Source: Tubulanus polymorphus
Lineage: Eukaryota > Nemertea > Palaeonemertea > Tubulaniformes > Tubulanidae
DNA: 64,000 bases
Direction: 5' to 3'
Assembly: GCF_964204645.1 (NCBI RefSeq)
Contig: NC_134027.1
Location: forward strand, 24,230,485-24,294,484
The stretch's first letter is position 1. Every line of letters starts with the position of its first letter. Positions 23,826 to 49,894 of this stretch are shown piece after piece. The position numbers and the translations under genes were made by a program. The notes beneath the pieces were generated by a model that was not told the origin of the DNA, ran no database searches, and was given only the letters and a program-made list of their open reading frames with translations.

Positions 23826-23832
23826 TATATAA
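23826..23832 (+). promoter_or_regulatory. TATA box of WSC gene D (type B promoter)
   Basis: TATATAA followed by the same leader as gene B, ending CTCATCAG before GTAAGTG. Confidence 0.7.
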
Positions 23833-24952: not shown

Positions 24953-25069
24953 ATTCGATGTTCATCGATTGAGAACCTCAATAAAGATTGATATAACATT
25001 TCTTTCGCCGTTTTACTTATATTTCAAATAACATCGGGTGACACAAATAGAGCTGAGCCCTAGCCTGGT

Positions 25070-25450: not shown

Positions 25451-25813
25451 GTACTGGGTGACACAACACATATGCTGATACAACGCGATTGTTCATACTG
25501 ATTCTAGTATCCTAATGCTGCTGAATTTATGATAACAGGTGTCCTAGGTTCTTTTCGTAAGATTTTTGGTATACGCATATACGTACAAAAACCATAGCGG
25601 GAATTGAACAAAAATCCATTTTGTTGCGCCAAAGCGGCCGTTAGCATTTTCCACGCGGTCTAAGTACCTCATTCAAACAGAATTCAATTTTGGCACACAC
25701 AACGGAACAAGGTCGGATCCAGTGGGACTCGTCCCCCCAAATCTTTTAGAGCCCTTAAATTTTCTTTCTTTCATTTTATAAAGAAATATGAATTGTTCCC
25801 GATGACAGCCAAC

Positions 25814-26176
25814 TGTTAGGTTGGAAGATCCTCGGTTGATGGTGATTTCCAATGTGGGGTAACTAGTCAGAGGTATAGAGCCAGGAACGAACGTAAGAGT
25901 CGAATATATGCGTGTTATATAGATTCAATCGTCGATGATATAAGGTAAAAATGACAATTTAACATAATCGGGGGGTTAGTTTATATAGATATATGGTTAG
26001 TTACAAGAAACATGATATCACATATATAATCTGATTAGTCGTGGTTAATAAGTTGATCTCCCGTGTTTGTAAACAACAAGGGAGTTTCCAAGAGATTAAC
26101 CACGTCTAGGCAAGAAAAGTTCGATATAAATAATTAATCACGTAAATAGGTCGATTGTAATCCTATCTGCGTAACA
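25814..26176. mobile_element. Candidate solo LTR
   Basis: TGTTAGGTTGGAAG...CTGCGTAACA with CAAC at 25810-25813 and 26177-26180. A related repeat copy near 21360-21405 lacks this segment, which supports an insertion. No coding sequence. Confidence 0.45.
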
Positions 26177-26180
26177 CAAC

Positions 26181-26700
26181 AAATAGCCTTGGAGAAGACA
26201 AACATTTCAAAATTTTCTGACAGAGGGCCCCTGACATTCAACGTAGAGGACTTCTACAGCAACATCTACCCAAGAAGAAACTAAAATAGACTTTTAGGCC
26301 TCATAGAAAACGACAAAAATACATATTATAATGGACAAAATGATTTTCAATCTCGTTGTACATTATAGTTCCAAAACCTCGATGCATTGAATAAGGCAGC
26401 CAGCAAAGTTAGGCCTATCCTCAATCAGCCGCTTGTCAGTTCAGGCTGGTTGGAAGGTTGTTTGAATGAACTGGAACCGAAATTTCTAATTATGCGGGCT
26501 TCGATCTTAACAAAAAATGCTCGAATTAATTCGATCGCCGATCACACAACTATCTGTACTTCGATGTGATATCCCTGCTAATCCTCAATTCATTCCGCTT
26601 TGAACTGGAGACAATAAAAATAAATCACACTAGGGCGCAGCTCTATTTGTGTCACCCGAGGTGATTTGAAATATAAGTAAAACGGTGAAAGAAATGTAAT
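26181..26700. other. Non-coding interval right of the solo LTR
   Basis: Contains a dispersed repeat at 26330-26530 whose inverted relative is at 42440-42700, and one diverged minus-strand WSC-type array unit at 26580-26625 (ATTCCGCTTTGAACTGGAGA). No gene seen. Confidence 0.5.
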
Positions 26701-26740
26701 ATCAATCTTTATTGAGGTTCTCAATCGATGAACCTCGAAT

Positions 26741-27634
26741 TTACACCCCTCTGATGTCTTTAGATGAGTGCAAAGTGGAGTATACTGAGTTTCTCCATCT
26801 GCCTCCACATATTTCTCGCCTGTTTCCTGCGCAACGCTTATTGCATTGAGATTCAGGTGCTGGGCCATTCATACCGACACGATTACCGCAGAAACATTGC
26901 CAACTAAACTGAAGACCGGCAAATCTATATCCTGAAAAAAATGTGCGTAGTAATGAGTTTAAAACCCGCTATATAAATATATAATTTAAAAGATAGAAAT
27001 CTAATTTTTATTTTTTTAAGAATCATAAGTAAAATACAAGACACTTCGGACTCGCCCTATCGTCAGCTATACGTCGTGTATTTTGCTTTTGATTCTTGCC
27101 GATTTAAATCTGTATATATCGGGTTTAAAATTTGCACCACATCAGAGCGTACGGTGCTATTTAACAGAATGACCACGATTTCTGTATGCAACATTTCAAA
27201 CTTTAGTACCTTCTCGGGAATCTGAGATCAGAAATTCATCTAAACCCCTTCCCGAGAACAAACTACAAACGAATCCGAAGCATTGCTGCATCGCCTGGAA
27301 GAAGGCTGCGGCGGTTGAAAACCCATGAAGAAGGTAAATTGATGTCAAAAATGTTTCAAAATATCGAATAGTCCTTACCTTTTCGCTTACAAACAGCTAT
27401 GCATTTGTCGATAGTCATGCCTTTCCTATCAACTGCCCGACTCGATTTCATATCTCTCTTCTTGCTGTCTTTATAACATCCGACATACTTCCGAAATTCT
27501 GCCGAACTATCAGCTATCAGAAAAGAGAAAGAAATTTCGAAAGGGGGCCGATTAGACTCTTTCACAAATACTTAATGATATTTACCAACGACCAAAATGA
27601 ACGCCAACGCGATGAACAGAGTTTTTGTAAACAT
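26741..27634 (-). CDS. Secreted single WSC-domain protein, gene E (minus strand)
   Basis: Minus-strand exons 27634-27586, 27513-27379 and 26931-26741 (124 aa). Signal peptide MFTKTLFIALAFILVV; exon 1 is one codon shorter than in A and C because the donor moved, but the phase is kept. WSC domain with SKKRDMKSSRAVDRKG, KCIAVC, QCFC, QCNKRC, ICGG. The poly(A) signal is the complement of 26708-26713. It is type A in promoter and sequence, and the only family member facing left, so it lies tail-to-tail with gene D. Confidence 0.9.
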
Positions 27635-27857
27635 CCTGAAAGCGAATTAAAAATGTTCATAAATTAAGAGTTAAATCGAGTCGAAAACGAATGCAAAGAG
27701 AAATTCCTGGTAGAATGGTGGACAGGAACTGACTTTACCTAGATGCGCGAGTGTAAAGAGAAATACCTGGTCGACAGAAGGAGTGGTAGATGACAACACT
27801 GACTTTAACTAGAAGATTTATATTTTCGCAACTGATTTGACATTCTATGTGGCTCAG

Positions 27858-27865
27858 TATTTATA
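27858..27865 (-). promoter_or_regulatory. TATA box of WSC gene E, with a second upstream promoter copy
   Basis: The complement of TATTTATA reads TATAAATA. A near repeat of the promoter segment (CATTCTATGTGGCTC, then GTATTTATACGATTAAGACAT) lies further upstream at 27970-28025, so the promoter is tandemly duplicated. Confidence 0.7.
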
Positions 27866-28289
27866 CGATTAAGACATGACAAACAAAGTTAATGCTATAG
27901 AAAAAATGGTGCCGGTCTCAGACTTTAAACAGAAGGAGTGATAGATGAATGCAAACACTAAGCTGATTTTACATTCTATGTGGCTCGGTATTTATACGAT
28001 TAAGACATGGCATACAAAGTTAATGCTATAGAAAAAATAGTGCCGGTCTCTGACTTTAAAAAAAACGGAGGCACTAAATTAACCAGTGTCCACAATGAGA
28101 TTTAAGATTTACAATTTAATACGTTTGACAAATCGACTGAATTTGTGAAAGTACTGAATTGACGATCACGCATTTACCGGTTCCACTGAATTGAAATTAG
28201 GAATTGAAGAGATATTTACATGATCGATAGCGCGGAATATTCACAAATAACATCTCATTTTCTCAACAATGAACGAGTATTTGTTGGTC

Positions 28290-29530: not shown

Positions 29531-30359
29531 TTGTGTCGTTGTGCGGAGCTGAGGAAGGATACGCTCTCCAACGATATTTTGGTTCCTTCTTCGGGTCGCA
29601 TAACACAGCAATGAGGATCCGGTCCTCAAAAGTACCTCATTTTTCAACGAAAAATTAAACATTCTAATCCCGGAACAACAAATCGATCGCGCGCACTGGG
29701 CAGCGATCCTTTGATCCTCGACGCCCGCGCCCATTAATCGTAAAGTTCGTGCTACTGGACATCTAGACAAAGAGCGCGTCGTAAAACTGAGAAGGAACTC
29801 AAAGGAACTAGAACACGTGTCTGTGGTATGTAACCCCATGTTTTCATGAACTACCGAAGACCGGGGTCAGCTAAAATGATATCGAGTTACGGGCAGAGAT
29901 GCCACGACCACAATTTGGGTTCACCTTTAACTCGTGTTAATTCTGAGAGGAAACTGATGGCTCATTCATGATTGGGAGAATTTAGAAAAAGCTCGGAAAC
30001 ATATACACAGAGCATCTAAAACAGCTCATGGCCGTCCCGCTTACAAAAGTGAACATTTGTTATACAGTCATATTGTAGCTCATCTTCCTCCAAGTCTTCC
30101 TCTGTGTACAGTACCTCGTAGCCTAATATATCGATTTTCCATTTGACAAACTCTGATCAAAGCTCTTGTGAAGGGTGTCGTTAATGAAAAATCAATTGTT
30201 TTGCCCTATTCTATAAGTTCCGTAACAGCATGGTTAATTCGGATCAGTCAAATTGCTGAACAGATCGCCTCGGTGACGTCACAAAAAGGAAACCGTACGT
30301 ACAAGTACATCGTGCGAAGCCTCATTACCATAGTCTTTCTTCGTTCTTAAGAAAGTACA

Positions 30360-31325
30360 GGAGCATTCATTAGATATAGATGTTGCCCTAAAATTATTTG
30401 ATTCAATGGTCATATCTGTTTTATCATTTGGTTCTGAAGTATGGGTGGCACGAAAATCAAGGGATATTGGAAAAGGTGCATCTCTCTTTTTGTAAATATC
30501 TTTTAAAGTTGAGAAGGTCGACCCCCAGTATATTTGTATATGGGGAACTGGGTCGTTTTCCCCTTGAGGTTACTATTAAGATACGTATGCTTAACTTTTG
30601 GGCAAAACTAGTGAATGATGAAAATAGTATGTCGTCTATGATGTATCGCTATTTATATAGATCACAAATCAGAATCTGGACAGAATCTGTTAGAAACTAT
30701 TGGCCTAGGTTATTTTTGGATTGACCAGTCAGTAGTAAATGTAAATTTGTTCAAAACCTTAATAGAACAAAGGATTAGAGATCATTATATCCAAAATTGG
30801 CAAGGTATAGTTAGAGAAAGTCCGGGTGCCTCAACATACAAATTTTTTAAAGTAGATTGGGGCTACGAAAATTACCTTAATAGCTTGCCACAAGATTTGA
30901 GAATTGCCTTGTGCAGATTTAGATACTCTAATCATAAATTGCCAATAGAGTTAGGTAGATACCAGGGTGTTGCCAGGGGAAATCGGTACTGCGTCAAATG
31001 CCAAGCTAATGTTGTTGGTGACGAGAAACATTTTCCATTAAATTGTTCATATTTTTCGGATTTACGTCTAAAATTCATCCACCTTCGTTTTTGGAGATCT
31101 CCAGACCAATTCGCACGCCTTTTAAATTCTACATGTGAAGCTTTGAGTAATTTAGCAATATTTATTAAAAAGGGTTTATTATCATATGTTTAAAGCCATG
31201 ATATTCTAGCTTGTATCTTTTTTTTGTATTAAAGTGTACTATGTTGTTGTTATTATTTTGTAAACTACTCTGTGCTCTGCGCATTAAGTATTAATTGTGG
31301 AGCAATAAACTGAAACTGAAACTGA
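30360..31325 (+). pseudogene. LINE (Jockey/CR1-like) 3' end with frameshifts
   Basis: RT C-terminal region split over frames: LKLFDSMVISVLSFGSEVW, then (new frame, 30398-30724) KVHLSFCKYLLKLRRSTPSI and VYGELGRFPLE, then (30747-31193) RFRYSNHKLPIELGRYQGV and CVKCQANVVGDEKHFPLNC. At least two frameshifts and a stop separate these blocks. It ends with a 3' UTR and an ACTGAA repeat tail (31309-31325), which directly abuts the foldback element. Family assignment is by the conserved HKLPIE.GRY and C..C..GDE.H blocks. Confidence 0.85.
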
Positions 31326-31337
31326 ATGGTTAAAACA

Positions 31338-33099
31338 ATAAACCATTTTACAGTTGCTAGCCGCCATTTTGTTAGGGTACTTTTGCCCCGTATTGTTGGG
31401 TCATTTTTTTCTCTTTTTTAAAAACCCTCCGTGATGTGTATTGTATTATATTTCATCTACCCATGGATGGATTTTGACAGTTTCAGCAACATTCAAACCG
31501 CATAAATCTCTAGTTTTCTGTTATGTAAAAATCATTTCTCAAATTTACAACAATGCGACATGAGAGCGATATAAAAATCGGTGGTCAGTTTTTGCCGTGC
31601 GCATAGAAATCAAGGGTACTGAAATTTGAAGTTCGTTATTTTCAGAAATAATTTTCTAAAAAATCCAAACATTTCAAGCACTGTGCGCATAAACACCCCC
31701 TTTCAGGTGAACTTTGAAATTTTAAGATATCTTTCCTAGTTTTTTTCCTATGGCACTTTAACTGCAGCGCGTGTATTGTCATTCCGAGATTCGGCGCTGT
31801 TTTCTTTGCGTGTATTTTAGTATATGGGTGTTATTTCTTCATTTTCACTACACTTGTCTCTACGGAAAATGGTTTTAATTGTTGGTACGAGTATCAGGTT
31901 TAAATATCACGTCGTTTATGCAATATAATAGGTCGAAGACATTAGAGATGTTGGGGTTTAAGGGATTTTTCTGACCAGTTTTAGCAGCGAGACTGAGCGG
32001 CATTTTGATCACGCATTCGAAGTTGCGCGCGGGAAGAGAATATATGGGCCTATATTGAGATGGAAGAAGAAAAGAAATATATCACTCAAAATCGAGTATG
32101 ATGACCATTTAAATCAGTAGTCTATCAATAAATTTACATAAAAATCTACTGAAATTAGATGGATGGAGAAGTGGTCAAAAAGCTGGACAAATGGGGTGGG
32201 GCAAATATTCAGCTACTTTCTATGAATACTTTGTATTAAGTACACACAAGATTGATTAGATTGGGAAGAAAATATAGGAAAATGTTTTCTTGTTTTGGTG
32301 GTGAAATATCAAGTATCAAGTTCGAATGTCAGACGCACGTGATAAAAAGTAAAAAGTGACATCTACCATCACAAAAACGCAAGAAGTGTGTGGATTGCAT
32401 TTACAACAAAAGAGTGATATTTTTGGGTTTTCTTGGGTGCATGTACGTAAGCCTCTGCCTGCCGTAAAAGCGGCTACCATTACAGCCATTACGAACTAGC
32501 GCCGGAGAACGGAATACAGTATTAATGCCGTAATATTTAAACCTGATACTCGTACCAACAATTAAAACCATTTTCCGTAGAGACAAGTGTAGTGAAAATG
32601 AAGAAATAACACCCATATACTGAAATACACGCAAAGAAAACAGCGCCGAATCTCGGAATGACAATACACGCGCTGCAGTTAAAGTGCCATACGAAAAAAA
32701 CTAGGCAAGATATCTTAAAATATCTTAAAAGTTCACCTGAAAGGGGGCGTTTATGCGCACAGTGCTTGAAATGTTTGGATTTTTTAGAAAATTATTTCTG
32801 AAAATAACGAAATTTCAGTACCCTGGATTTCTATGCGCACGGCAAAAACTGACCACCGATTTTTATATCGCTCTCATGTCGCATTGTTGTAAATTTGAGA
32901 AATGATTTTTACATAACTGAAAACTAGAGATTTATGCGGTTTGAATGTTGCTGAAGTTGTCAAAATCCATCCATGGGCAGATGAAATATGATACAATACA
33001 CATCACGGATAGTTTTTAAAAAAACGAAAAAAATGACCCAACAATACGGGACAAAAGTACCCTAACAAAATGGCGGCTAGCAACTGTAAAATGGTTTAT
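31338..33099. mobile_element. 1.76-kb foldback element with long inverted arms, copy 1
   Basis: Ends ATAAACCATTTTACAGTTGC and its complement. The arms run inward about 580 bp each (for example GGTACGAGTATCAGGTTTAA at ~31883 against its complement at ~32540), with a ~600-bp unique centre. No transposase. An 87-codon ORF kept in both copies spans an arm and is probably not coding. Copy 2 (40319-42074) is almost identical. It sits in the intron just before an orphan Ig exon. Confidence 0.88.
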
Positions 33100-33195
33100 C
33101 GGGTACTTTTTGTAAATATTCGATCGTGGAACTATTCCGCTAAACGCAGCACTGGGTCCTCACTTGTTTTGATCTTATGTATATTGTTGATTTAG

Positions 33196-33477
33196 GTAAC
33201 GTTGAACTGCGATGCCACCGGGTATCCGCTACCAGAAATCCGTTTCTACAAAACACATATAATGAATGGTTTGAGCGACTTCGAACAAAAATCCACCGAG
33301 TTAACATCGAAGGGTAACGTTGAGTTGGTCACATCTCGTCAACCAGAGCGGGTTATGGCTCGTTTGGTGATCAGGTCGCCGACGGCAGCTGACCTGACCG
33401 GCTGGTATTCGTATACCTGTCGCGCTAAAAACAAATACATGGAAGCATTTCGCGCTATGACGCTGCTGGGAAACTAG
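33196..33477 (+). pseudogene. Orphan Ig-domain exon (5' part of its gene missing)
   Basis: 282 nt, the same length and acceptor context as exon 4 of the complete neighbour (36530-36811): GTAACGTTGAACTGCGATGC coding VTLNCDATGYPLPEIRFYK, and ending with SYTCRAKN and a stop. It is a single I-set-like Ig domain half (Cys in TLNC, Cys in YTC). Exons 1-3 are absent: upstream is the foldback element and then a LINE. It may be the exon lost from the right-hand gene at 37464. Confidence 0.8.
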
Positions 33478-34097
33478 ATAAGATGTACGGACGGGGCAAT
33501 TATTTGAGTAATGCAGAATCGAAATGAGTGTTTGTGCTTTCTTTTCCCCGAATCCACGTCGACCAATGTGAGAAACGGTATCGTCAATTTTACTTTCGGC
33601 GATACTCATTTGAACTGGCATCGTGTACAATTTAAAATAATGCATCGACGAAAGATCTATGATAAACTCCTACGGTGAGTGGAGACATGCAGGTCCTCGA
33701 ATTCGTGCAATGTTATACAATTTTGTTTATGTCATTCATTTAGAATAAAATCATCATTGAGAAAACAGTGTACAATTTGAAACAAAAATCATATTTCCAT
33801 CGTAACTTTTCGTTTCTCTCCAGGTAAGATTTGCCACCATTTTGTAAATGTAAAGCGTTTGATGATATTTGTGATTGCGGAGGAGGGCACGTTGATTCGA
33901 ATGTGAATTATTTCTAACAAACATATTTAGGACCTACTTTGGAAAACAACTCGTAATCACGATAAACATTACCGGGTAATATGTTAAACGTAGCAATTAC
34001 CCACTTGTAATCTATGTGGAAAGACCAAATATTCCATCATTTGTGAATAAAGGGCTTGTTTATACAAGTTTGGCAGTTCACACGCAGTGTAAGCACT

Positions 34098-36811
34098 ATG
34101 GAGGGAAAGCTAAGTTGGTCCTTTTTCGCAGTAATTTTCACGGTGAGTAAGATGTCTCAGTCTTTGTTCGATTTAGAAACGAATAAATGAATGACCGATT
34201 TTTGTAGATATTCTGAAATGTATCAGAGGAAAATTCATGGTGTAGGCCTATAGCAGTTTCACGTTTTAATCTCGATGAAGCACTCTGAATCCGTGTAATT
34301 ACATAACATAATTGCACAATATAAAAGAATAACGAGTCTCAAATGTTTGTTTGAGCTGTAGTTTATTTTTTGTTTTAACGTTTCGACTATATCCTGATAG
34401 TTATCTTATAACCGATTGTAATCTACAAGAAGACATTGGAAAATTCATCACTGAATGCTTTGATAAATCATTCACATATCTATCTCAAATGTATATAACT
34501 ACTTGTTTAGTTTTTATTTTTATTTGTTTATTATTATACCTGTTGATCTCAAATACTTTTCATATTCTGTATGTCTCAGTACGCAAGGATTTTGAATACA
34601 ATGAAGGGTCGTCTGCGAATCTGAATCTATGAATCTTCAGAAATGTTAAGATTACAAACAAAATCATGGAAATCCATTAACAGAGATACTTATCCATTAA
34701 CCAGATATCTGGCCATGTTTTGTTTGTATGAATTGTTACAGGTATGTATCGCGTCGTTTGGTATTGTTTGGGCAGACGATCAGGATAATGAGTGCTCGGA
34801 TAATCTCGGTTGGATTCGGCGAGTTGAAGTTTCCGAGTACGAACCACGAAAACCGTTCGTCATATCAGTCACCGCTGATACGAGCCTGGAATTAGAAACC
34901 CACTGGTATATTCGGTTTTCCGAACGAGAAGTGCTGATCACCAATACGGGTAAATTAGTCCATATACGTATACGTATATACCAGAAATACTTATCTAAAT
35001 AAGTCGCAATCATAAATAACATCGTCCGGCGTCCTGTAAACCACTGATAATTAATAAAACTGATGAAATTTCTGTAGTATAAAAGGAAAAAAGAAACTTA
35101 GTTATTTCGTTTCTTATACTTTCGATTTTCAGCAGATCAGGAGGTGTGAGTCTCAGTATGATGCGAAGGTCTCTGAATTTACATTTCCAGATGCTGGAGA
35201 TGATGATGGATACGGTAAAATATCTCAACAAACTTCGGGCTCGTCAACAACAGCGCGTTTAGAAGTCGAATCAGCCCCAGAAACACTAGAAAAAATAGCA
35301 ACGTACCGACTGATGCTAATACTGACTGGCTGCCAAACATACACCATACATGTCATGGTAGATGCCGGTAAAATGGCAATCGTGCGCGATATCCCGTTGG
35401 GTAGAGCTACCGGGTCTCCGGAGACAATAGTGCTGGAAGATACAGTCGATGGTACGGTGACGTTACAGCGACGCTTGACGTTCGATGTCACTGAAGCGGC
35501 CCCGCAATTCTCACGCAGTAAGGCCAGTGAAGGCATCGTGAGTGCCACGTCTGAAGACTGGTACAAATCATTAGATAACGACGGTAAAGAAGCGGACCAT
35601 TACAGTCCGAACTTGATCGACAATCACGGAACGTATAACAAATGGATCGACGATCTGACCTACGAGGCGAAGATGGTCGTTAAACTGAACGCAACAGATG
35701 AAAATACCGGCGAATACTGCGCATCAGCCCCATACTTGGATTTAGGCGTCGACAAAGTAGTTGAGATTTACACTTCCATGTGTTCACTCATGACCGAGAG
35801 AAGCGATTTCGGAAAGATCAAAAATGTAATGGTATATGCACCTCCGTTAGACCAGGATATATGGCACATCAAAATTGACGCTCTGGAGAAGTTTGGTGTA
35901 GTACCTATCAGCCATAAAGAGAAGACCATTGTCACTGTATTCACCGTCGCTTATCCGAGTCCTTATATTCTGATGACGAGCAAAAATGGTCAATTCGTAA
36001 AACCAGTTTCGACGATTCGCGCGAATAGCTTTCTCGAATCCTATTTTGAAGTGGATGGAAGCCAGTCGGCGATTTTCGAGGATCAGTGGAAGTTGGACGT
36101 CGGTTATCGAAATTCGATTCAAACGAAAGCGATCAAATTCGCGAAGTTCGAACCGATTACATTCATTTCAAACAAACAAATGACGAGATTTGTGTTCGAT
36201 GCGACTAGCAAGAAACAGGTAACATATTCTAAAATAGTTCTTGATCGAGTGTATTTGTTGGTACCTGCGAAATACTAATTCTGGACTCCTTCTTATTGGT
36301 GAATTGCACCTTTTTTGGTAAAAGATTGAAAATTACTGTATTTATTTTCTTATTCAACTGTCGTATAACATTATGGATCCTATCATGCTTGGTTCTAGTT
36401 AGTTACCTAAATCGTTGGTGTGGTAGGTTTAAAATAATCGGGTGGTTTTTGAAAATATTCGATCGTGGAACTATTAAACACAGCACTGGGTCCTGACTTG
36501 TTTTGATCTTATGTTTATTGATGTTATAGGTAACGTTGAACTGCGATGCCACCGGATATCCGCTACCAGAAATCCGTTTCTACAAAACACTCAGAATGAA
36601 TGGTTTGCAAAACTTCGAAAAGAAATCCACCGAGATTAAATCGACGGGTAACAAGAAGGTGGTCATATCTCGTCAACCGACGCGGGTTATGGCTCGTTTG
36701 GTGATCACGTCACCGACAGCAGCTGACGTAGGCGGCAGGTATTCACAGTACACCTGTCGCGCTAAAAACGAATACATGGAAAAATTTGGCTTTATGACGC
36801 TGGAAAACTAG
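34098..36811 (+). CDS. Secreted Ig-domain protein of unknown function, complete copy
   Basis: Exons: 34098-34142 and 34742-34949 (signal peptide WSFFAVIFTVCIASFGIVWA, then DDQDNECSDNLGW), 35141-36218 (359 codons of unfamiliar sequence, with ILTGCQTYTIHVMVDAGKM, DIPLGRA, GEYC, SVAYPSPYILMTS-like runs), and 36530-36811 (C-terminal Ig domain, TLNCDATGYPLPEIRF to YTCRAKN). Predicted ~537 aa, secreted, no membrane segment seen. Problem: exon 2 ends in phase 1 (ACG-G) while exon 3 needs phase 2; both tandem copies show it, so a junction is misread or a tiny exon is missed. The central region matches no family I know. The Ig domain lacks the usual core Trp, having Tyr in RFYK. Confidence 0.72.
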
Positions 36812-37463
36812 ATCAGGATGTACGGACGGAAAATTTTTTTAGTAATCCAGAATTGGAATAAATATGTGTGTTTTCTTTTCTACGCATTTCTCAGCGAAAC
36901 TATACATAACAGTTAACGTAAAATTTACTTTCGATTTTTGACGCTATTTCCAAAGAGTATATACTCTTTGGAAATGGTGTCATGTAAAACTTGAAATAAT
37001 GCATCGAAAAGCGGTCTATAATAAACTCTTACGGTAACTGGAAACGTTCAGGCCCTTAGATGATATATTCGTTCAATCGTATACTATTTTGGTTCTGTCA
37101 TTCCTTCGGAATAAAACTAACGTTAAGAAGACTATGTAAAATTTACGAAAAAAAATCTTATTTCCGTCATGAGTTTTCGTTTTCTCACATTTTTTTCTCA
37201 CGATTTTTTGTAAATGTAAAATATCAGATACGTATACGTGATTGCGGAGGATACGTTAATTCGAATGTGAATTTTGACTGATAACGACAACATATTTAGG
37301 GCTATACTTTGGAAAATAACCTCTAATTACGATAAACATTACGGAGTGATATGTTAAATGTTGCAATTACCTATACGCGGAAAGACAAAACATTTCATTA
37401 TTTATGATTTTGGCTTGTTTATACACGTTTCTGTCTGGCAGTTTCACACGTAGTGTAGTCACC

Positions 37464-39819
37464 ATGGAGGGGAAGCTAAGTTTGACATTTCTTACGTTCA
37501 TGGTGAGTAAATATATCTTTGTTCGATTTAGAAATGTGAATGACGACGCTTTTGTTGATATTCTGAAATGTATCATCGACACATTTGTTGTGAACATAGG
37601 CCTGTTCCATGTTTTAAGCTTATACTTAGACCAGTCTAAATTCGCCCCGGCCCAATTTGGATCGGACCAAGCGCTTACACCTGAAAAGCGTCGGTTCCAA
37701 ATTGGTCTGGTCCATTTCAGACCGGTTTAATTTGGAACGACCCAAAAGAGCGAATCAGGTCGCGTTCCAAATTTTGGAACTGACTAAATCTCTGTGGTAT
37801 ATATGTATCAAACCCCGTCAATGATTCGTAATCAAGCTGATCGATAGTTTTTTGATTTCATATAATTTCTATGTTGCCTGAAAATTAATGTATCGGCTTA
37901 TAGATTATCATTTATCGTGTATTGCTCGCGGTGTTTTTTTATTGTTCTGAAAATAACCTAGAATTTATCATAGATTACGAGGTGTCCAGATCGATAGTTT
38001 TTTGATTTCATATAATTTCTATGTTGCCTGAAAATTAATGTATCGGTTTATAGATTATCATTTATCGTGTATTGCTCGCGGTGTTTTTTATTGTTCTGAA
38101 AATAACCTAGAATTTATCATAGATTACGAGGTGTCCAGATAAACTACAATCATCAAAATTGTTCAAATAGAAAACTGCGACAGGGACTCATAAATCTATC
38201 ATAGATATAAATTTCGGGGTAAGATACTAATGGCGTCATCTCGCAGGGCAAGAGTCCCAAATTTCTCTTTGTACTCATGATTGTTTCCACGTTTCGACTT
38301 TATCTAAATAGTCATCTTCAGTAAGGTTACAAACAAAATCATGGAAATCCATGAACAAAGATACTAATCAAGAAACCACTTTTTTGACCATGTTTTGTTT
38401 GTATGAAATGTTACAGGTATGTATCGCGTCGTCTGGTGTTGTTTGGGCAGACGATCAGGATAACGAGTGCTCGGATAATCTCGGTTGGATTCGGCGAGTT
38501 GAAGTTTCCGAGTACGAACCACTGAAACCGTTCGTCATATCAGTCACCGCTGATACGAGCCTGGAATTAGAAACCCACTGGTTCGTTACTTTACCTGAAC
38601 GAGGAGTGCCAGTCATCAATACGGGTAAATTATTCCATCTGTATTTTTCGTATACCTACTAGGTATATTAAAGGAAGGAAGAAATTTTGTTCTTTTGTTG
38701 CTCAATCTTTGAATGTTCGGTGTTGAACCATCTCATACCAGAAAGCCTGAGTCTCAGTATGATGCGAAGATCTCTGAATTCACGTTTTCAGATACTGGTG
38801 ATGATGATGGATACGGTAAAATATCTCAACAAACTTCTGGCTCGTCAACAAAAGCACGTTTAGAAGTCGAATCAGCCCCAGAAACACGAAAAAAACTAGG
38901 AACATACCGCCTAACGATAATACTGACCGGCTGCCGAACATACTACATTTATCTTATGATAAAGGCCGGTAAAATGGTAATGATGCGCGATATCCCGTTG
39001 GGTAGAGCTACCGCATCTCCGGAGACAATAGTGCTGGAAGATACAGTCGATGGTACGGTGACGTTACAGCGACGCTTGACGTTCGATGTCACTGAAGCGG
39101 CCCCGCAATTCTCACGCAGCAAAGCAAGCAGAGGCGTCTTGAGGGCCACATCGGAAGACTGGTACAAATCATTCGATCACGACGGTAAAAAAACGAACGA
39201 TCACAGCACGAACCCGATCATCAATCACGGAACGTATAATAAATGGATCGACGATCTGACCTACGAGACGAGCACATTCGTTAAAATGAACGCTAAACAG
39301 ATAACAGATGAAAACACCGGCGAATACTGCGTATCAACTGCTTACTCGGATTTAGGCGTCGACAAAGTAGTTGAGATTCACACTTCCATGTGTTCACTCA
39401 TCACCAAGAGAAGCGATTTTGGAAAGATCAGAAACGTACTGTTATATGCAGCTCCGTTGTATCAGAATTTATTGCGGGATAAAACGGAAGATGTCGGGGT
39501 GGTACCAATAAGCAGTAAAGAGAAGACCATTGTCACTGTGTTCTCCGTGGCTTATCCGAGTCCTTATATTCTAATGACGAGCAAAAGTGGTCAATTCGTA
39601 AAACCAGTTTCGATGATTCGCGCGGAAAACCGTCTCATATCCTATTTCAAAGTGGATGGAAGCCAGTCAGCGATTTTCGAGGATCAGTGGAAGTTGGATG
39701 TCGGTTATCGACATCCCATTCAAACGAAGGCGATCAAATTCGCGCAGTTCGAACCGATTAGATTCATTTCAAACAACGAATGGCATAAAACAGTGCTCAA
39801 TGCGACTAGCAAGACAGAG
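37464..39819 (+). CDS. Secreted Ig-family paralogue lacking its Ig exon (3'-truncated)
   Basis: Tandem paralogue of the gene at 34098: exons 37464-37502 (MEGKLSLTFLTFM), 38417-38624 and 38742-39819; the last has exactly the length of its counterpart (1078 nt). The same exon 2/3 phase conflict exists. The Ig exon that should follow the donor at 39820 is missing: a hairpin and then the foldback element take its place, and beyond 42074 no Ig exon occurs. Read-through would end a few codons into the intron (KIVRNR then stop), giving an Ig-less protein. It is either a pseudogene or a shortened secreted form. Confidence 0.7.
37625..37760. repeat. Palindromic repeat in intron 1 of the Ig paralogue
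   Basis: Repeated and inverted forms of TTCCAAATTGG(T) and GGACC/GGTCC (GGTTCCAAATTGGTCTGGTCC region). The related segment at 28640-28690 suggests a small MITE family. Confidence 0.4.
37841..38139. repeat. 150-bp direct tandem duplication
   Basis: Two copies (37841-37990, 37991-38139) starting TCGATAGTTTTTTGATTTCA differ at two or three positions, so the duplication is recent. Confidence 0.95.
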
Positions 39820-39850
39820 GTAAGATATTCTAAAATTGTTCGTAATCGTT

Positions 39851-40025
39851 GACGAGAGAAATCCCACAATGATTCAGTCAAAGATGAAAAATTCTTGAAT
39901 TGAAGAGATCTATTTTGAGCAACGTTCCGGCTATAAAAACTATTAGCCATCAATTCAAGAATTTTTCACACTTCAATTCAAGAATTATTTATCTTTGACT
40001 GAATCATTGTTGGGTTTCTCTCGTC
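39851..40025. repeat. Long hairpin after exon 3 of the truncated Ig gene
   Basis: Left arm GACGAGAGAAATCCCACAAT...TCAAAGATGAAAAATTCTTG is matched by the right arm ending TTGGGTTTCTCTCGTC. Arms of about 55-60 bp, with TTCAATTCAAGAATT repeated in the loop. It starts 31 bp past the donor site. Confidence 0.85.
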
Positions 40026-40318
40026 ATCCATCTCACACGGATAGTGTGTATCTTCTCGACTCATCCTGTTCCCGGTCGTTATGTATTTGTACCTGTGGTT
40101 TAGTTTCACGGATCGGATATTTACACAAGCCCATCGATTAGGTAACTATCTAGACCCTTTCGATGTTCGAATTGCACCATTTATGGTAAATGAATCGAAT
40201 ATGAATTTCAACTCTATTTGAGTTAGATCTTATTCGACAACACTGTGGTATAACACTATAGGTCCTATCATGCTTTGTTCTAGTTAGTTACCTAAATCGT
40301 TGGTGGTAAGCTCTTACA

Positions 40319-42074
40319 ATAAACCATTTTACAGTTGCTAGCCGCCATTTTGTTAGGGTACTTTTGCCCCGTATTGTTGGGTCATTTTTTTCCCTTTTTA
40401 AAAAACCCTCCGTGATGTGTATTGTATCATATTTCATCTGCCCATGGATGGATTTTGACAGTTTCATCAACATTCAAACCGCATAAATCTCTAGTTTTCA
40501 GTTATGTAAAAATCATTTCTCAAATTTACAACAATGCGACATGAGAGCGATATAAAAATCGGTGGTCAGTTTTTGCCGTGCGCATAGAAATCAAGGGTAC
40601 TGAAATTTGAAGTTCGTTATTTTCAGAAATAATTTTCTAAAAAATCCAAACATTTCAAGCACTGTGCGCATAAACACCCCCTTTCAGGTGAACTTTGAAA
40701 TTTTAAGATATCTTTCCTAGTTTTTTTCCTATGGAACTTTAACTGCAGCGCGTGTATTGTCATTCCGAGATTCGGCGCTGTTTTCTTTGCGTGTATTTCA
40801 GTATATGGGTGTTATTTCTTCATTTTCACTACACTTGTCTCTACGGAAAATGGTTTTAATTGTTGGTACGAGTATCAGGTTTAAATATCACGTCGTTTAT
40901 GCAATATAATAGGTCGAAGACATTAGAGATGTTGGGGTTTAAGGGATTTTTCTGTCCAGTTTTAGCAGCGAGACTGAGCGGCATTTTGATCACGCATTCG
41001 AAGTTGCGCGCGGGAAGAGAATATATGGGCCTATATTGAGATGGAAGAAGAAAAGAAATATATCACTCAAAATCGAGTATGATGACCATTTAAATCAGTA
41101 GTCTATCAATAAATTTACATAATCTACTGAAATTAGATGGATGGAGAAGTGGTCAAAAAGCTGGACAAATGGGGTGGGGCAAATATTCAGCTACTTTCTA
41201 TGAATACTTTGTATTAAGTACACTCAAGATTGATTAGATTGGGAAGAAAATATAGGAAAATGTTTTCTTGTTTTGGTGGTGAAATATCAAGTATCAAGTT
41301 CGAATGTCAGACGCACGTGATAAAAAGTAAAAAGTGACATCTACCATCACAAAAACGCAAGAAGTGTGTGGATTGCATTTACAACAAAAGAGTGATATTT
41401 TTGGGTTTTCTTGGGTGCATGTACGTAAGCCTCTGCCTGCCGTAAAAGCGGCTACCATTACAGCCATTACGAACTAGCGCCGGAGAACGGAATACAGTAT
41501 TAATGCCGTAATATTTAAACCTGATACTCGTACCAACAATTAAAACCATTTTCCGTAGAGACAAGTGTAGTGAAAATGAAGAAATAACACCCGTATACTG
41601 AAATACACGCAAAGAAAACAGCGCCGAATCTCGGAATGACAATACACGCGCTGCAGTTAAAGTGCCATAAGAAAAAAACTAGGCAAGATATCTTAAAATT
41701 TCAAAGTTCACCTGAAAGGGGGCGTTTATGCGCACAGTGCTTGAAATGTTTGGATTTTTTAGAAAATTATTTCTGAAAATAACGAAATTTCAGTACCCTG
41801 GATTTCTATGCGCACGGCAAAAACTGACCACCGATTTTTATATCGCTCTCATGTCGCATTGTTGTAAATTTGAGAAATGATTTTTACATAACTGAAAACT
41901 AGAGATTTATGCGGTTTGAATGTTGCTGAAGTTGTCAAAATCCATCCAAAGGCAGATGAAATATGATACAATACACATCACGGATAGTTAAAAAAAAAAC
42001 GAAAAAAATGACCCAACAATACGGGACAAAAGTACCCTAACAAAATGGCGGCTAGCAACTGTAAAATGGTTTAT
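40319..42074. mobile_element. 1.76-kb foldback element, copy 2
   Basis: Same ends and arms as copy 1, differing at scattered sites and a few small indels. It is inserted after GTTACCTAAATCGTTGGTGG, the same intron where copy 1 adjoins the orphan Ig exon. Confidence 0.88.
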
Positions 42075-42099
42075 TTGATCCGGCATTCATGACCGATAT

Positions 42100-42330
42100 T
42101 CATATTTATTCGGGATACTTAGATTAATACTGCAAACCTGTAAAATATGAATATTTCAATTGAGGATTAAAACTGCTAGATAAATATTCACTTTTAAAAG
42201 CTGCTTACGATATGCTGACCAACAGGCGGAATTTAACTGACAGATATCTATGATTGCTAAATAACTGCTCTGATGCTGGCAACAAACTTTTCAATATGTG
42301 TCAACTACGGGTGATTTGAATTTTTTTTTT
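42100..42330 (+). pseudogene. Relic of a type B WSC gene promoter and leader
   Basis: GCTGCTTACGATATGCTGAC, CAACAGGCGGAATTTAACTG and a degraded GATGCTGGCAACAAACTTTTC follow the order of the leaders of genes B, D and F (about 17150-17260). The TATA is lost (ATTTAAC). No WSC exons follow; ATGAAGTTGATGTTGATG at ~42344 opens a short hydrophobic reading frame that stops after 19 codons. Confidence 0.6.
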
Positions 42331-44070
42331 TCAAATCCAAGACGATGAAGTTGATGTTGATGATCATATCGCGTTTGCTAGTTTTAACTGCTGGTTTCAG
42401 CTGATCGGCGGTCGAGTTTACAGAATTTTTTGTTTTAATCGAAGTACATAATTGGGAAATTCGGTTCCGGTTCATTCAAACAATCTTCCAACCAGTCTGA
42501 ACCGGCAAGCGAATGATTGGGGTGAATTTTTCTGGCTGCCTAATTTAATACATCGAAATTTTGGAAATAGCTATATTACAAGGTGGAGATCATTTTGTCC
42601 ATTTTTATATTTTTGGTCGTTTTCTACGTGTAAATGGTCCGATAGTTTATTTTAGTTTTTTTCTCGGGTAGATGTTGATGTCGAAACCAATGTTTAACGT
42701 TAATTGGTGAACTTGCGTAGTAGTTTGATCAATAAAACTAAAAATTGAGCTTAACCAGGAACATTGCAACAAAAGGTTTTTTGATTGATGCCATACCTAT
42801 TAAGTGTGCTGAACAACATACTAAAAGTCTACCAAATTCTGCTCATAGGAAGTCCCATTTTTCAAGATGGCCACCAAAGACCTACCTGTAATCAGAAAAT
42901 CAGCTGATACTCCACAAATATGGATCATAGAGTTAGTTAAATGGCATGTTACCCCATGTTTTCAGGTATAGCGAATTCATTAATGATGTTTTTTCAACCC
43001 ACCCATGGTCACATGACCCAGAAATACAGCACCACCATTACCTATGCAAAATACATATTAAAAATTCCTTTATATATTTGTTTCTATTGGTGCTAACGGT
43101 GTCGATATTGGTTTCTACCCTATGTTTTCAGGGTCAGACAATTCATTTTTCATACCTAGGTTTTTCTATCTAAAGTAATCATGTTACCCAAAAATCCAAG
43201 ATGGCCATCATTTTAACCTGGTCATGTGACCAATTAAGCAAAGATATCTAACTACCACTCTTTTTGGTAAATTGCTTAATTTCATGCCGGCATATAATTC
43301 AACAACAATTTTTCATCATTCTCTGATATTATGTTAGTTTAAATGTAGATTTTAAATGAGATGGTTTGAGAAGATGCGATGACGTCGGGTAATTGGTAAC
43401 TACTTTTTCAAATTGACGCCTCATTAACTTTCAAGATCTAGTTGCGAATGAGGGTAGTCTCGGCTGTTCCGATTGGAATTTGTTAATGATAAAATTTAAC
43501 AATCAGTTCATTCCACCACGTAGCAAGAAGTTGTGAACTCTATTTCCATAGTTAATGTTCCAAATTGCTGATCGGAGACGCCATGATGCCAATGGATTGT
43601 AGTACCATCAATCTTCATCTAGAAAAGGTCTCGTGCTGTTTTGGTTATTAAAAGAGTGATTTTACATGAACCACATAGAGAAATAGGCCTACACGACAAA
43701 CCATACTTTCTGCAAGTGCATCTTTGGGTTCTACAAAAAGTTGTGCAGAAAGGACTTTCATCTTAGATGTGTAGAAAATCAAAATGCGTAGAGCATTGCG
43801 AATTGTTTATTTAAACTCCAAACATTTCCATCGTACATAAAGGAAACTTTAAGTATTTACAAATATTTTCAGAAAATTGTAACTTTTAAAACATAACAAA
43901 CTGCTGGTCCCTAAATCATCATCATTAGTTCATTAATATATTTGTCAAATTTCATATCATTTCTATATTGCCTAAAAGATTAATTCTGCGAACTTGCAAA
44001 TTATGAATATTCCAATTGAGGATTGACACTGACTTGATAAATATTCAAATCTACTTGATGAGTATTCAAG
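42331..44070. other. Non-coding interval before WSC gene F
   Basis: 42440-42700 is an inverted relative of 26330-26530. 42735-43250 carries loosely repeated CAAGATGGCCA(C/T)C and CATGTGACC motifs of a decayed dispersed repeat. I see no gene. Confidence 0.45.
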
Positions 44071-44114
44071 CTTAAAAGCAGCTCACGATCAACAGATTAC
44101 TGTACTGCTGGTAA

Positions 44115-44121
44115 TATATAA
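44115..44121 (+). promoter_or_regulatory. TATA box of WSC gene F (type B promoter)
   Basis: TATATAA then CTGATAGATTTCTAGGGG; leader exon ending CTCATCAG before GTAAGCG (44177). Confidence 0.7.
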
Positions 44122-44292
44122 CTGATAGATTTCTAGGGGTTGGTCATCGTTCTGAAGCTGACAACAAACTCATCAGGTAAGCGCGTAAACTACGGGTAAC
44201 AAGGCAGGAAAACTCATCGTCGATCAAGATAGAAACACGTTCGTTTTCAACTAAATTTAACTCTTAATTTACATTTCTAAAACAATTTCAGT

Positions 44293-45790
44293 ATGTTTAC
44301 GAAAACTCTGTTTATCGCGTTAGCCTTGTTTATGGTGGTTGGAGCTGCTGAAGGTATGTATATACATCTAGCCGTTTCTGATATCTCATTGATGTTTGAG
44401 CCGATCAAAAAGAGATGAAATCTTATTTAGCCCTCTTTCGAAATTTCTTTCTATTTTCTGATCTGTTCGTTCGGCAGCAATACGGAAGTATGTCGGCTGT
44501 TATAAAGACGGCACCCATGACAAGAGAGATATGATAGCGAGTGGGGCAGGTGATAGGAAAGGCATGACTGTCGGGAAATGCATAGCTATTTGTAGGGGCA
44601 AAGGTAAGGATGATTCGATTTTTTAAACATTTTTGACACCAATTTACCTTCATGGGTTTCCTAGTATAACCATCACAGCCTTCTTCCAGGCGACGCAGCA
44701 ATGCTTCGAATTTGTCCGAGGTTTCTTCTCGGCTTAGATAAATTCCTGACCTCGGATTCCCGAAAAGGAACTAAAGATTGAAAATGTTGCATACCAGAAT
44801 TGTAGTCATTCCGTTAAACGTTAGATGTTTATTGGTAGAATAGCCCCGTACACTCGACGTGGTAAAAAGATAATAAGTTAAAAACCCACTATACTTTTCA
44901 AGAATCAAAATCAAAATACACGACGCTTCGGACTCTCCCAAGAGACCGATCGTCAGGTGTGTTATAGAATATATATATAGAATCTGGATCCAGTTCATCC
45001 AGTTTCCTCTCAATACCAAGATGCCGTCAAAAGACAGTTGGAGGTCGAGGTCTCCGGCATCTTGCACCATCTCTTTGGAACTCGCTAAATTTGGACATTC
45101 GAAACATCGCTGAACTTTTAACTTTTAAAATCCGCCTGAAACATCATCTTTTTATGAAAGCATATGCACTCTAATTCAGTATCACTATCATTAAAACCCT
45201 TTCAGTGCGTCTACACCGCAGTGCGGTGTGTAAATCAGTGATGGATTTTGCTAGTACACCGCACTGCGGTGTATTGATGTAATTAGTAATTTGTAATTAT
45301 CTCTATTGAAAAATGGCAGCAAGTGTCAAACATAGTGAAATACTAGTAACTAACGATACACCGCACTGCAGTGTAGACGCACTATAGTGGTATTCCCATT
45401 GTTCAACACACTAGGGTGGAATTTTTTAGAATTTTCAAATTTTCTCCAGCACTATAGGGTATTAATTAGTCAGCACTGAAAGGGTTTTAAGCGCTGGTGA
45501 ACATTGTTTCAATGAAACAGGCGCTATACAAATGTGCTATTAGTATCATAATTATTATCTAGTGTGTTTTAAACTTATTAATACGTACATTTTTTTCAGG
45601 ATATAGACTTGTCGGTCTCCAGTTCGGTTGGCAATGTTTCTGTAGTAATCGTGTCGGTTTGAATGGTCCGGCAGCAGAATCTGAATGCAAAATGCGTTGC
45701 GCAGGAGACAAGCGAGAAATATGTGGAGGCAATTATAGGAATTCAGTGTATGCCACTTCACGTTCGTCTTATGATTTCGTTCTGTACTAA
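44293..45790 (+). CDS. Secreted single WSC-domain protein, gene F
   Basis: Exons 44293-44353, 44478-44603 and 45600-45790 (125 aa). Signal peptide MFTKTLFIALALFMVVGAAE is longer than in A-E. WSC domain with YVGCYKDGTHDKRDMIASG, KCIAIC, QCFC, ECKMRC, ICGG, and a divergent tail (YATSRSSYDFVLY). It combines a type B promoter with a type A-like domain, and is the most diverged member. Intron 2 (~1 kb) contains a LINE 3' end and a MITE. Poly(A) signal at 45818-45823. It is separated from the A-E cluster by the Ig array. Confidence 0.88.
45072..45185 (+). pseudogene. LINE 3'-terminal fragment (WSC gene F intron 2)
   Basis: Plus-strand reading contains WNSLNLDIRNIAEL, then FKIRLKHHLFMKAY, the standard C-terminal ending of many LINE ORF2 proteins (WNSLP..IR...L..FK..LK..LF). 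The 3' tail resumes after the MITE as GCGCTATACAAATGTGCTAT and an AT-rich repeat at 45520-45560. Confidence 0.75.
45195..45486. mobile_element. TTAA-flanked MITE with nested palindromes
   Basis: Ends AACCCTTTCAGTGC and GCACTGAAAGGGTT, with TTAA at 45191-45194 and 45487-45490. Inside are ACACCGCACTGCGGTGT palindromes. TTAA duplications fit piggyBac/Kolobok-type elements. Family copies: 3900-4170, 55870-56103, 56500-56600, 63661-63950. Confidence 0.8.
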
Positions 45791-45914
45791 ATTCGATGTT
45801 CATCGATTGAGATCCTCAATAAAGATCGATAAAAGATATTACATTTCTTTCACCGTCTTACTTATATATCAAATGACATCGGGTGACACAAATAGTACGA
45901 GCCCTAGCCTCGTT

Positions 45915-46325
45915 TATTGCCTATAGTTCAAAGCGGAATGATTTTTAGGATTGACAGCTATGTCCTGGGTTCGACCCCGCTTTATCGTCTCTACTTCAAA
46001 GCGCTACGAAATGAGGGTTAACATGGATGCCCTGGGTTCGAACCTGGTTCACTGTGGTCTCTGATTTGAAGCGGAATTAATTGAGGATTAACAGTGTCCT
46101 GGATTCGACCCCGATGTATTGTCTCTAGTTCGAAACGGAATGAATCGAGGATCAACAGGGATGTCCTGGGTTCGACCCCGCTTTATTGTCTCTAGTTCAA
46201 GCGCTACGAAATGAGGGTAAACATGGATGTCCTGGGTTCGAACCTGGTTTACTGTGACTCTGGTTTGAAGCCGAATGAATTAAGGATTAACAGTGTCCTG
46301 GTTCGAGCCTGGTTTATTGTCTCTA
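45915..46325. repeat. tRNA-promoter-like tandem array after WSC gene F (~7 units)
   Basis: Same family as the arrays after genes B and D (CTAGTTCGAAACGGAATGAA, GATGTCCTGGGTTCGA). Alternate units differ (TTCGACCCCGCTTTAT versus TTCGAACCTGGTTTA), suggesting a two-unit higher-order repeat. Confidence 0.88.
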
Positions 46326-46639
46326 GTTCAAATCACATGCGCATACTATCAAATATGAATAAACAAATAACGATCAAACAAATTTATTATCAAAAAATTT
46401 TTCAAGTTGAATTTACACAATATTTCTACAGTAAAACTAAGTTAAGTCAGCATCAAATGTCTTCACACTGTCATTAAGCCATTTTTGAGTCGCTATTTGT
46501 ATTTACTCTTCCATTTGCCAGGTGGGTCATTAATTGGATAAGGCGAAAAAGAATTTGTCCCTTGTTTCTCATTTCTGCTGAGTTTCAAATTTGACCCGGC
46601 CAGCCACCTATCTACCCTGTTTTTTTTTCCTTTTTACCC

Positions 46640-46785: not shown

Positions 46786-47497
46786 ACCTCTCTCTCAACC
46801 CTGTACAACTCACGATCAAACTTACCACGATTACAGACCCGTCAGCTGTAGATATAACAAATTTTATTGCAGTTAACAAAATGACCCGGCCGATGATAAG
46901 GAGAAAACTCATATTACTTTAGTGAGTAATGACTTTTTTCACAATCCCTAGAGGATGACCAGGGCTTCTAGTGGTCCTATTTTCCTATTTTTTAGTGCTT
47001 GTCCTATTTTGTCCTATTTTTATATGAAAAAGTCCTATTTGTCCTATTTTCTCTCATTTTCCAGCTCGTCGACGACTTTTTATCGACAAAAATGTTCTTT
47101 ATATCTTTTCATATGATGTGAAACACCATTTTGAGTGTTTGGTAGAACCTGCAGCATTCATGTTCGATAAGTTCTGGCTATACAACTTCTTTTCTAATCT
47201 TTATATCCTAACATGCCCAATGATTTTGTTCCAAATGTCACATGTTGCAGTGCAACTGGGCTTTGGCTATATGAGGGTTACAAACCAGAGGTGGTCGAGA
47301 AGTCAATCTCTTTTCATCCAAACATTTCTTGATTATAATGCTAATTCTTTTGGGTCCGCCTCAGGTATACATTGCCAAGTATCACCACAGGGATGCTCTG
47401 TTGTGATCTAGCTGTGTGCAGTGACAATACTGAAAGCAATTATGGATTGCTTTGATTGTTGCCACTGCTTTAAATATTGTAACCTTAGACAGGAACA

Positions 47498-49894
47498 ATG
47501 CCGAACCGGACCAAGTTCTCGGATTCATGGTTGATTGAAGATGATAAACAAGGACACAAAATAAATGAATGGTGCCAACCAGTGAAAGGCGATATTTATA
47601 AGGCATATTGCTTTATATGTGAAAAAAAACTATCTATTGATAACCAGGGTTTAGGCCAACTAATACAACATGCCTCAAAAATGATGCATCAAAATAATAG
47701 CAAGATAAAACTGAACAAAAATCATAAAAAACTTTTCCCGGTTGATAACACTTTAGAATGTGAAAGCTTAAGTGATAAGGTACTCAAGGCAGAAATAATA
47801 TGGGCCATGTATGTGGCTGTAAATGACTACAGCTTCTTGTCATGCAACGATGTGTGTGAAACTTTCAGATGCATCTTCAAAGATCCAGCTGTTATAAATG
47901 AAATGACGTTGTCAAATGGGAAAGTGTCTTATACGATAAGCGATGGAATAAGAATACAGTTGACAAATGAGTTGATGAATGATATTCAGGATTGTACTAC
48001 TGGATATTGTGTTTCATACGATGAAACACCAAACAAGCAGAAACTGAACCAGTTGGATATATATGTGGGGTATTTTTCACCTATATCCAAGAAAATTGAA
48101 ACTCGAACAGCTGAAATGGTACTCGGGGAGCTTCTCGGTGCCATGAATGACTTCAACATTGACTTATCGAAAATCATAGCTTTGTGTAGTGATGGCCCAA
48201 ATGTAAATATATCAACTTGGCGTAAGATGTCAGCAAAAGTAATAGAAAAGGGCGGAAAGATGATAGATGTTGGATCATGCAGCCTCCATATGGTTCATAA
48301 TGCGTTTAGAAAAGGCTTAGCATCTTTTGGCGCTGACATAGAAGAGTTTGCAGGAGATATACACACATTCTTCAAGTATGCCACAAGGCGACAAGATTAT
48401 GCAGTGTTCCAGCGAAAGGTTGGTGTAAAGGAAAATACATTCCTCAAACATGTTGATTCGCGTTGGTTGACACTAATTCCAGCACTCTGTAGAATCAGCG
48501 AACAGTTTCCAGCTTTGAAGGCATATTTTGGTGATCTCAAAAAGAATACTAAGAATGATGATTCTCAATCTGCATGTTGTAAACGAATACAGAAGGTACT
48601 ACTCGACGTAACTGTTCCTGTGAAGATACAATTTATCCTAGATATCGGTAATATGTTTCAACGGTATGAAACTCTTTTCCAAAAGCGTGAACCGATGATT
48701 CACATTTTGTATACAGAAATGTGCGAGTTAATGCATAAAATATTGTTACGCTTTATTAAGCCTGATTCTCTCCCAGAAAAGACTGGAGCAAAGTTGCTGG
48801 CTGCTGATATTGAAAAATGTGAGCAGCTCTCTGATGCTTGTTTAGTGGTTTGTAAGCTCACCAAGGATAAACTTGCTGTTCTAGATTCTTCGAAACAAAA
48901 ACTGATAATAAAAGGCATTCGGGCATTCTATGTTAAAATAGCATCATATCTCCAACAGAAACTTCCCCTTGGAAATAATTTCCTACGAAACGTGAGGTGT
49001 TTACAACCGGAACGTCGGTCTGTTCATCGATTTGGGTTGTCAATTAAGGCTCTGGCGGTTGATCTGCCGACTATCATACCTGCATCACAAGTCTCCACAG
49101 TTGTAGACGAATGGAAGATATATAGCAATGACTTGCTTGAAGATGATTGGTATAAAGACTCAGATGGAATAAGGTTACGAATTGATAAAGCATGGGAGAA
49201 AATATTTGTTCGCCAGACTGCTTCTGGTGATAGCAAATATACTGTCCTGCCCAAATTGGTAATGGCATGCCTTACTATATCTCATGGTAGTGCTGAGGTT
49301 GAAAGAGGGTTCTCTGCCAATTCACGCACCATTACTGGTTCAAGGGCAAGTCTTGGAGTTGAAGCAATTACAGGTTTGAGAATGATCAAGGACAAATTAA
49401 AGACCACTGGACAGAAGCCATGTGAAATGACATTATCACCTGAGCTACTATCATGCTGTAGACGGTCTTATAAAAACTATACAGAGAGACTTAAGAAAGA
49501 GAAAGAGATGGCTGAAAAGGCAAATAAGAAAGCTCTAGAAGATAGAAAAAGAGCCGAGGAGGCAAAGCAGGTAGAGACAGAATATGAAAATACAAGAAAA
49601 ATCCTTGAAACTAGAAAATTAGAGTTGTTGGAAGTTGATCATTCATCCATGGAATCAATGACGACAAATAAACAACTACTCATGGAAGGCAATGAAAAAT
49701 TGGCCAAAGCTATCAAGGAAAAGGACCTTACACAAATCAAAGTTGCACAGTGCATGATTGAGGTGGCACACAATAAATTTGATAAACTTGAGAAGGAAAT
49801 GAAAGACAATCGACAGAGAATAGGTGAAATTGAGAAAAGGAAGAGAAAATTAAATGATGACCATGCTGAAACCATGAAAAAGCTAAAATGTTAA
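47498..49894 (+). CDS. hAT-superfamily transposase with C-terminal coiled coil
   Basis: A 798-residue uninterrupted ORF. N-terminal C2H2-type finger (C38, C41, H58, H64), then the RNase H-like core with the expected acids: D175 in SYDET, D232 in CSDGPNVN and E600 in HGSAEVERGFS, the last inside the hAT dimerisation motif. A C-H pair (CSLHMVHNAF) lies between. Residues ~670-798 are an unusually long Lys/Glu-rich coiled coil beyond the normal end of hAT transposases. No frameshift or stop, so it may be functional or recently active. Start chosen at the first ATG before the zinc finger. The upstream ORF at 47118-47411 looks non-coding. Confidence 0.92.
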   Translation: MPNRTKFSDSWLIEDDKQGHKINEWCQPVKGDIYKAYCFICEKKLSIDNQGLGQLIQHASKMMHQNNSKIKLNKNHKKLFPVDNTLECESLSDKVLKAEIIWAMYVAVNDYSFLSCNDVCETFRCIFKDPAVINEMTLSNGKVSYTISDGIRIQLTNELMNDIQDCTTGYCVSYDETPNKQKLNQLDIYVGYFSPISKKIETRTAEMVLGELLGAMNDFNIDLSKIIALCSDGPNVNISTWRKMSAKVIEKGGKMIDVGSCSLHMVHNAFRKGLASFGADIEEFAGDIHTFFKYATRRQDYAVFQRKVGVKENTFLKHVDSRWLTLIPALCRISEQFPALKAYFGDLKKNTKNDDSQSACCKRIQKVLLDVTVPVKIQFILDIGNMFQRYETLFQKREPMIHILYTEMCELMHKILLRFIKPDSLPEKTGAKLLAADIEKCEQLSDACLVVCKLTKDKLAVLDSSKQKLIIKGIRAFYVKIASYLQQKLPLGNNFLRNVRCLQPERRSVHRFGLSIKALAVDLPTIIPASQVSTVVDEWKIYSNDLLEDDWYKDSDGIRLRIDKAWEKIFVRQTASGDSKYTVLPKLVMACLTISHGSAEVERGFSANSRTITGSRASLGVEAITGLRMIKDKLKTTGQKPCEMTLSPELLSCCRRSYKNYTERLKKEKEMAEKANKKALEDRKRAEEAKQVETEYENTRKILETRKLELLEVDHSSMESMTTNKQLLMEGNEKLAKAIKEKDLTQIKVAQCMIEVAHNKFDKLEKEMKDNRQRIGEIEKRKRKLNDDHAETMKKLKC

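Follow-up and report, generated by a model that had tools for sequence, protein, structure and literature searches.

A permuted copy of two Ig-like gene-array units between foldback elements in Tubulanus polymorphus, with a circular intermediate as its probable route

Introduction

Circle-mediated duplication is usually inferable only from the flipped order of the copy. In human and cattle segmental duplications through circular DNA, a donor order A-B/C-D appears elsewhere as B-A/D-C, and both closing and insertion took place without homology, with only microhomology and short indels at the joints (PMC7450558); the KIT translocations (Durkin et al., cited in PMC7450558) are described as circle-mediated duplication as well. 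The eccDNA amplification of region B in wine yeast involved non-homologous insertion of an autonomously replicating circle, with no breakpoint repeats (PMC3053389). For the vasa duplicate of Nile tilapia, which is attributed to a circular intermediate, the sections on circularization propose an 8-bp inverted repeat at that step and describe neither a tandem-paralog crossover nor a flanking element pair (PMC3245284). How reintegration sites get chosen has been named as an open question (PMC3420103), and our literature search found no published case of recombination-based reintegration of circles. Among DNA transposons, the ISL2EU group of the PHIS elements produces an AT target duplication in A|AT|T (PMC4482050).

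Here we analyzed a stretch of 64,000 nucleotides (the window) in which, according to an original prediction made from the letters alone, two near-identical foldback elements bracket a circularly permuted array of Ig-like genes that is cut at the same intron on both sides.

Materials and Methods

The window corresponds to C3:24230485-24294484 of its own assembly (268 Mb), in which the donor was searched with the inner block as query; region C11:4950001-5000000 was then compared with the window. The full gene of the window was placed in a three-way alignment with genes C and A of the C11 array, and informative columns were scored. For the circle test, we used a 61-bp anchor at window 35500 that is present in C11 genes A and C, 7,228 bp apart; the A-to-C segment was closed in silico at the anchor and then opened at the intron-3 site of gene B.

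Results

The order in the window is element 1 (E1), orphan Ig-like exon, full gene, gene without Ig exon and element 2 (E2), so that the predicted unit order and coordinates hold (Table 1). The orphan exon gave a weak Ig_3 match and is ~84% identical to window 36530-36808. Between the end of gene B exon 3 (~39820) and E2 no Ig exon was seen in the window, the large exon 3 gave no domain match in Pfam, and an Rfam scan of the whole window returned no matches. Two small repeats were observed in gene B, namely a ~150 bp tandem duplication in intron 1 (37839-38140, 98.7%), common to C11 and the window, and a multi-copy foldback repeat with 61-bp arms in intron 3 (39845-40031), also on C11.

Table 1. 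Features of the permuted block, its bordering elements and its flanks (window positions).
Feature	Position	Strand	Remarks
LINE 3' part, 5'-truncated, with terminal (ACTGAA)n; forms the left outer flank and stops 11 bp short of E1	30334..31326	+	multi-copy matches stop at 31322-31326
Element 1 (E1), foldback, ISL2EU-like non-autonomous	31338..33099	+	AT duplication bases counted in at both ends
Permuted 7.2-kb block, source C11 array	33100..40318	+	
Orphan Ig-like exon, corresponding to that of array gene B	33196..33474	+	protein identical to C11 gene B Ig exon
Full gene, hybrid: 5' part array gene C, 3' part array gene A	~34100..36808	+	from informative sites
C-to-A crossover interval, exon 3	35436..35588 (outer limit 35700)	+	
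Gene B exons 1-3, Ig exon missing	37465..39820	+	99.6% to C11 gene B
Element 2 (E2), subfamily of E1, not its sister	40319..42074	+	AT duplication bases counted in
Right outer flank, within WSC-domain gene array	42075..42674	+	
Element terminal sequence			AAACCATTTTACAGTTGCTAGCC

A close relative of the inner block was found on contig C11. Window 35147-40322 corresponds to C11:4982702-4977523 (98.7%) and window 33098-36182 to C11:4977523-4974438 (98.1%); the two matches meet at a single base, C11:4977523, with no element between the equivalents of window 40322 and 33098. The C11 locus is an element-free tandem array of about five gene units, in which gene B is intact, with exons 1-3, an uncut intron 3 (CTCTTACAATAATCGGGTACTTTTTG) and then the Ig exon that is orphaned on C3. 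The left part of this uncut intron extends leftwards from 40318 and its right part rightwards from 33100, confirming the cut in one intron on both sides, and an identical cut position on the two sides is far beyond chance. Relative to its contiguous C11 donor, the C3 block is circularly permuted, as had been claimed, and the element-free intron 3 that the original prediction proposed as a check is present in gene B of the C11 array in the same assembly. Donor and copy are about 98.5-99.6% identical (block-C11 divergence 0.4-1.5%). Another abrupt junction occurs within the C11 array at C11:4968894-4967723 (L032/L036), where a gene B-type intron 1/exon 2 piece (window 38193-38515, 97.5%) passes into the post-Ig-exon region (window 33506 onward) with ~6 bp overlap.

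The full gene is a hybrid. Up to 35435 it agrees with C11 gene C at all but 3 of ~1,590 informative columns, from 35589 the informative sites follow gene A, and from 35786 they do so nearly throughout. Up to the switch the hybrid is 99.6% identical to gene C, and beyond it ~98.5% identical to gene A. Immediately 3' of the switch point (equivalent of window 35592), the exon-3 frame of C11 gene C is disrupted by a 1-bp insertion; the hybrid gene on C3 was spared this insertion because the crossover sits just upstream, and its reading frame is open. When the in-silico circle (7,228 bp) was aligned with the entire block, 7,223 bases showed 99.32% identity, and there were 6 gap columns; an A x C crossover followed by opening in intron 3 thus explains the block without further events. 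The closing junction of the proposed circle is readable as the C/A switch itself. Given that unequal sister exchange would give the same sequence linearly, the circle is a step that we infer.

Self-comparison of the window revealed direct 1.76-kb copies at 31335-33099 and 40316-42074. They share 98.6% identity across 1,765 alignment columns, and the inverted arms of each copy, ~575 bp long, are 95% identical. The genome contains at least 38 near-full-length copies (94-99% identity), and end matches numbered 178 and 182, corresponding to ~180 copies in 268 Mb. All 30 inspected copies begin with ATAAACC and finish with GGTTTAT, with A before the element in 29/30 and T after it in 28/30. The paralogous unfilled site of copy L005, found in L008, reads CAATTCAATTGTCG, a 2-bp AT duplication in A|AT|T; TA as target duplication was ruled out by this site. 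The duplication matches the published ISL2EU signature (PMC4482050), and the elements appear to be ISL2EU-like and non-autonomous, differing from that group in being non-coding foldback copies with arms of ~575 bp. Many DDE_Tnp_4 ORFs with YqaJ ORFs nearby were detected in the genome, and one pair of a DDE_Tnp_4 (400 aa) with YqaJ recurs in about ten places with the same scores and a spacing of ~1.4 kb (e.g., C1:15909638-15911537). Such repeated pairs would be expected of recently active ISL2EU-type elements and suggest their presence. At C1:20380820-20383445, a complex double element has three end repeats within 2.6 kb and probably arose when an element inserted into a second one or recombined with it.

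E1 and E2, together with copies at C7:15488743 and C4:21050117, form a four-copy subgroup marked by common indels. E1 and E2 are 18 substitutions apart, subgroup pairs generally being 16-18 apart, and four derived sites are common to the E2, C7 and C4 copies and absent from E1. A sister clade of E1 and E2 was rejected (lnL difference 15.7, p-AU 0.0055), and the evidence for their non-sisterhood appears good, yet not overwhelming because all four sites fall within T/A runs close to the ends of the element. The near-identity of the elements therefore stands, while their reading as sister copies does not, since E2 groups with the C7 and C4 copies; a composite transposon, with flanking elements that are sisters from one insertion, failed on the same test. 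In its B and C parts, the block diverges from C11 (18/4943) less than E1 does from E2 (18/1755; Fisher p 0.002), but when the whole block was compared with C11, the E1-E2 divergence was not significantly higher (Fisher p 0.16). These comparisons favor two distinct elements brought together, of which the first came with the circle and the second already resided on C3, rather than a duplicated single element.

The outer flanks read ACA-AT on the left and AT-TTGATCC on the right and fit a single insertion site of the family, A|AT|T; given the 2-bp AT duplications made by this family, the earlier impression of no obvious target duplication is thereby refined. AT on both outer sides of the 10.7-kb composite would be equally expected from one resident element being split. 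At search sensitivity, nothing else in the genome matched the first 327 bp of the right flank, and no paralogous empty outer site was found; the 11 bp after the LINE, considered as its target duplication in a test of former outer-flank contiguity, were unmatched within 20-31.3 kb. The inner junctions are short of one AAT unit compared with C11 (AATAAT), indicating that element insertion there was not base-perfect. Sequence type is uniform at both ends within E1 and likewise within E2, the two types differing. In the surroundings, a WSC-domain gene array flanks the inserted block on both sides (15000-28000 and 42000-46500) and has its own internal duplications, e.g., 16020-18800 versus 22646-25459 (95.6%), and an 800-codon open frame at 47489-49891 has a weak match to a hAT dimerisation domain (E 0.016).

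Discussion

We consider it probable, with considerable room for doubt, that the C3 block is a copy of two C11 array units that moved as a circle and integrated at a resident C3 element. Homologous recombination between tandem genes A and C would have released a 7.2-kb circle, and the source C11 haplotype, or the circle, would have borne one element in gene B intron 3. This element would then have recombined with the related resident element on C3, so that the block would come to lie between two full elements, with gene B interrupted at intron 3 and with a hybrid gene whose reading frame is intact. The model predicts that E1 and E2 are distinct family members, because a circle with one element met a resident one. 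Given that the reference C11 gene B is without element, a polymorphic or transient insertion must be assumed. Furthermore, E1 and E2 are unmixed at their ends, which fits poorly with a mid-element crossover and points to exchange within ~75 bp of an end, or to conversion or other joining. Of the routes listed in the original prediction, excision and reinsertion as a circle is the one that the evidence favors, the circle and its integration remaining conditional steps. One insertion followed by unequal exchange between units is borne out in its exchange, visible as the A x C crossover in the full gene, and contradicted in its single insertion by the rejection of sister elements (AU p 0.0055). 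Movement of the 10.7-kb composite by its foldback ends also predicts sister elements and is disfavored.

The same block sequence would arise linearly if an unequal A x C crossover had produced a C11 duplication A-B-hybrid-B-C with an element in both B genes, from which the 10.7-kb segment was transferred to C3 through ectopic gene conversion or moved there as a composite transposon. The outer ends suit the family target, and the many DDE_Tnp_4 and YqaJ pairs make an active ISL2EU-type transposase plausible, but this route requires E1 and E2 to stem from one insertion, against the rejected sisterhood, and C11 in this assembly has neither a duplicated B nor an element; we regard it as unlikely. 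The single sequence type at both ends of E1 and of E2 would be readily accounted for by an element-free circle that opened within intron 3 and became attached to the ends of C3 elements, through either microhomology end joining or a transposase-type reaction on two neighboring elements. The loss of 3 bp where the circle opened resembles end joining in the human and yeast cases, and ACAATAA is common to the left junction and the left outer flank/E1 boundary, although the common ACAAT is also expected from the target preference of the element. However, such joining presupposes that C3 already had two direct element copies close together, with ~180 copies in the genome, and its alternative, duplication of one copy, is disfavored by the phylogeny; we regard this element-free route as quite unlikely.

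An assembly artefact, in which the 1.76-kb repeat caused an element-bearing alternative haplotype of C11 to be misjoined to the C3 element locus, would explain why the locus switch falls exactly at the repeat ends, and the block-C11 divergence could be heterozygosity. Yet each element has private variants that accurate long reads can resolve, two independent misjoins would be required, and some molecule must hold the hybrid gene and the permutation anyway. We consider an artefact unlikely.

Under the circle model with a resident C3 element, a single assembly preserves the donor array together with the crossover that closed the circle, the site at which it opened and the two borders of its insertion, donor and copy being ~98.5-99.6% identical, and thus each step of the move can be tested. 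The original prediction did not include the donor array, the hybrid nature of the full gene or the true target duplication. The locus illustrates how a tandem array can seed a new locus on another chromosome, with an open-frame hybrid gene, and bears on how reinsertion sites may be selected. It is conceivable, but in our view improbable, that an active ISL2EU-like foldback family acts more generally as a docking site for tandem-array circles, so that, through homology or transposase, genes in permuted or hybrid form would spread from one chromosome to another.

As in the human and cattle duplications, a circle would have been closed, opened at another point and inserted at a distant site (PMC7450558). 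With region B of wine yeast the locus shares a circularly permuted gene cluster at a new site and genes split at the opening point (PMC3053389), and with the tilapia vasa duplicate it shares the permuted arrangement of an animal gene that kept its introns when duplicated to another site (PMC3245284). Non-homologous closing and insertion, a trait of the human, cattle and yeast cases and not of the mechanism, was not found here; instead, closing maps to a tandem-paralog crossover in exon 3, and both borders are copies of one transposon family. The C3 case is thus a variant that differs from the published circle-mediated duplications compared here in the homology between tandem paralogs at closing and in having copies of an element at both borders of the insertion.
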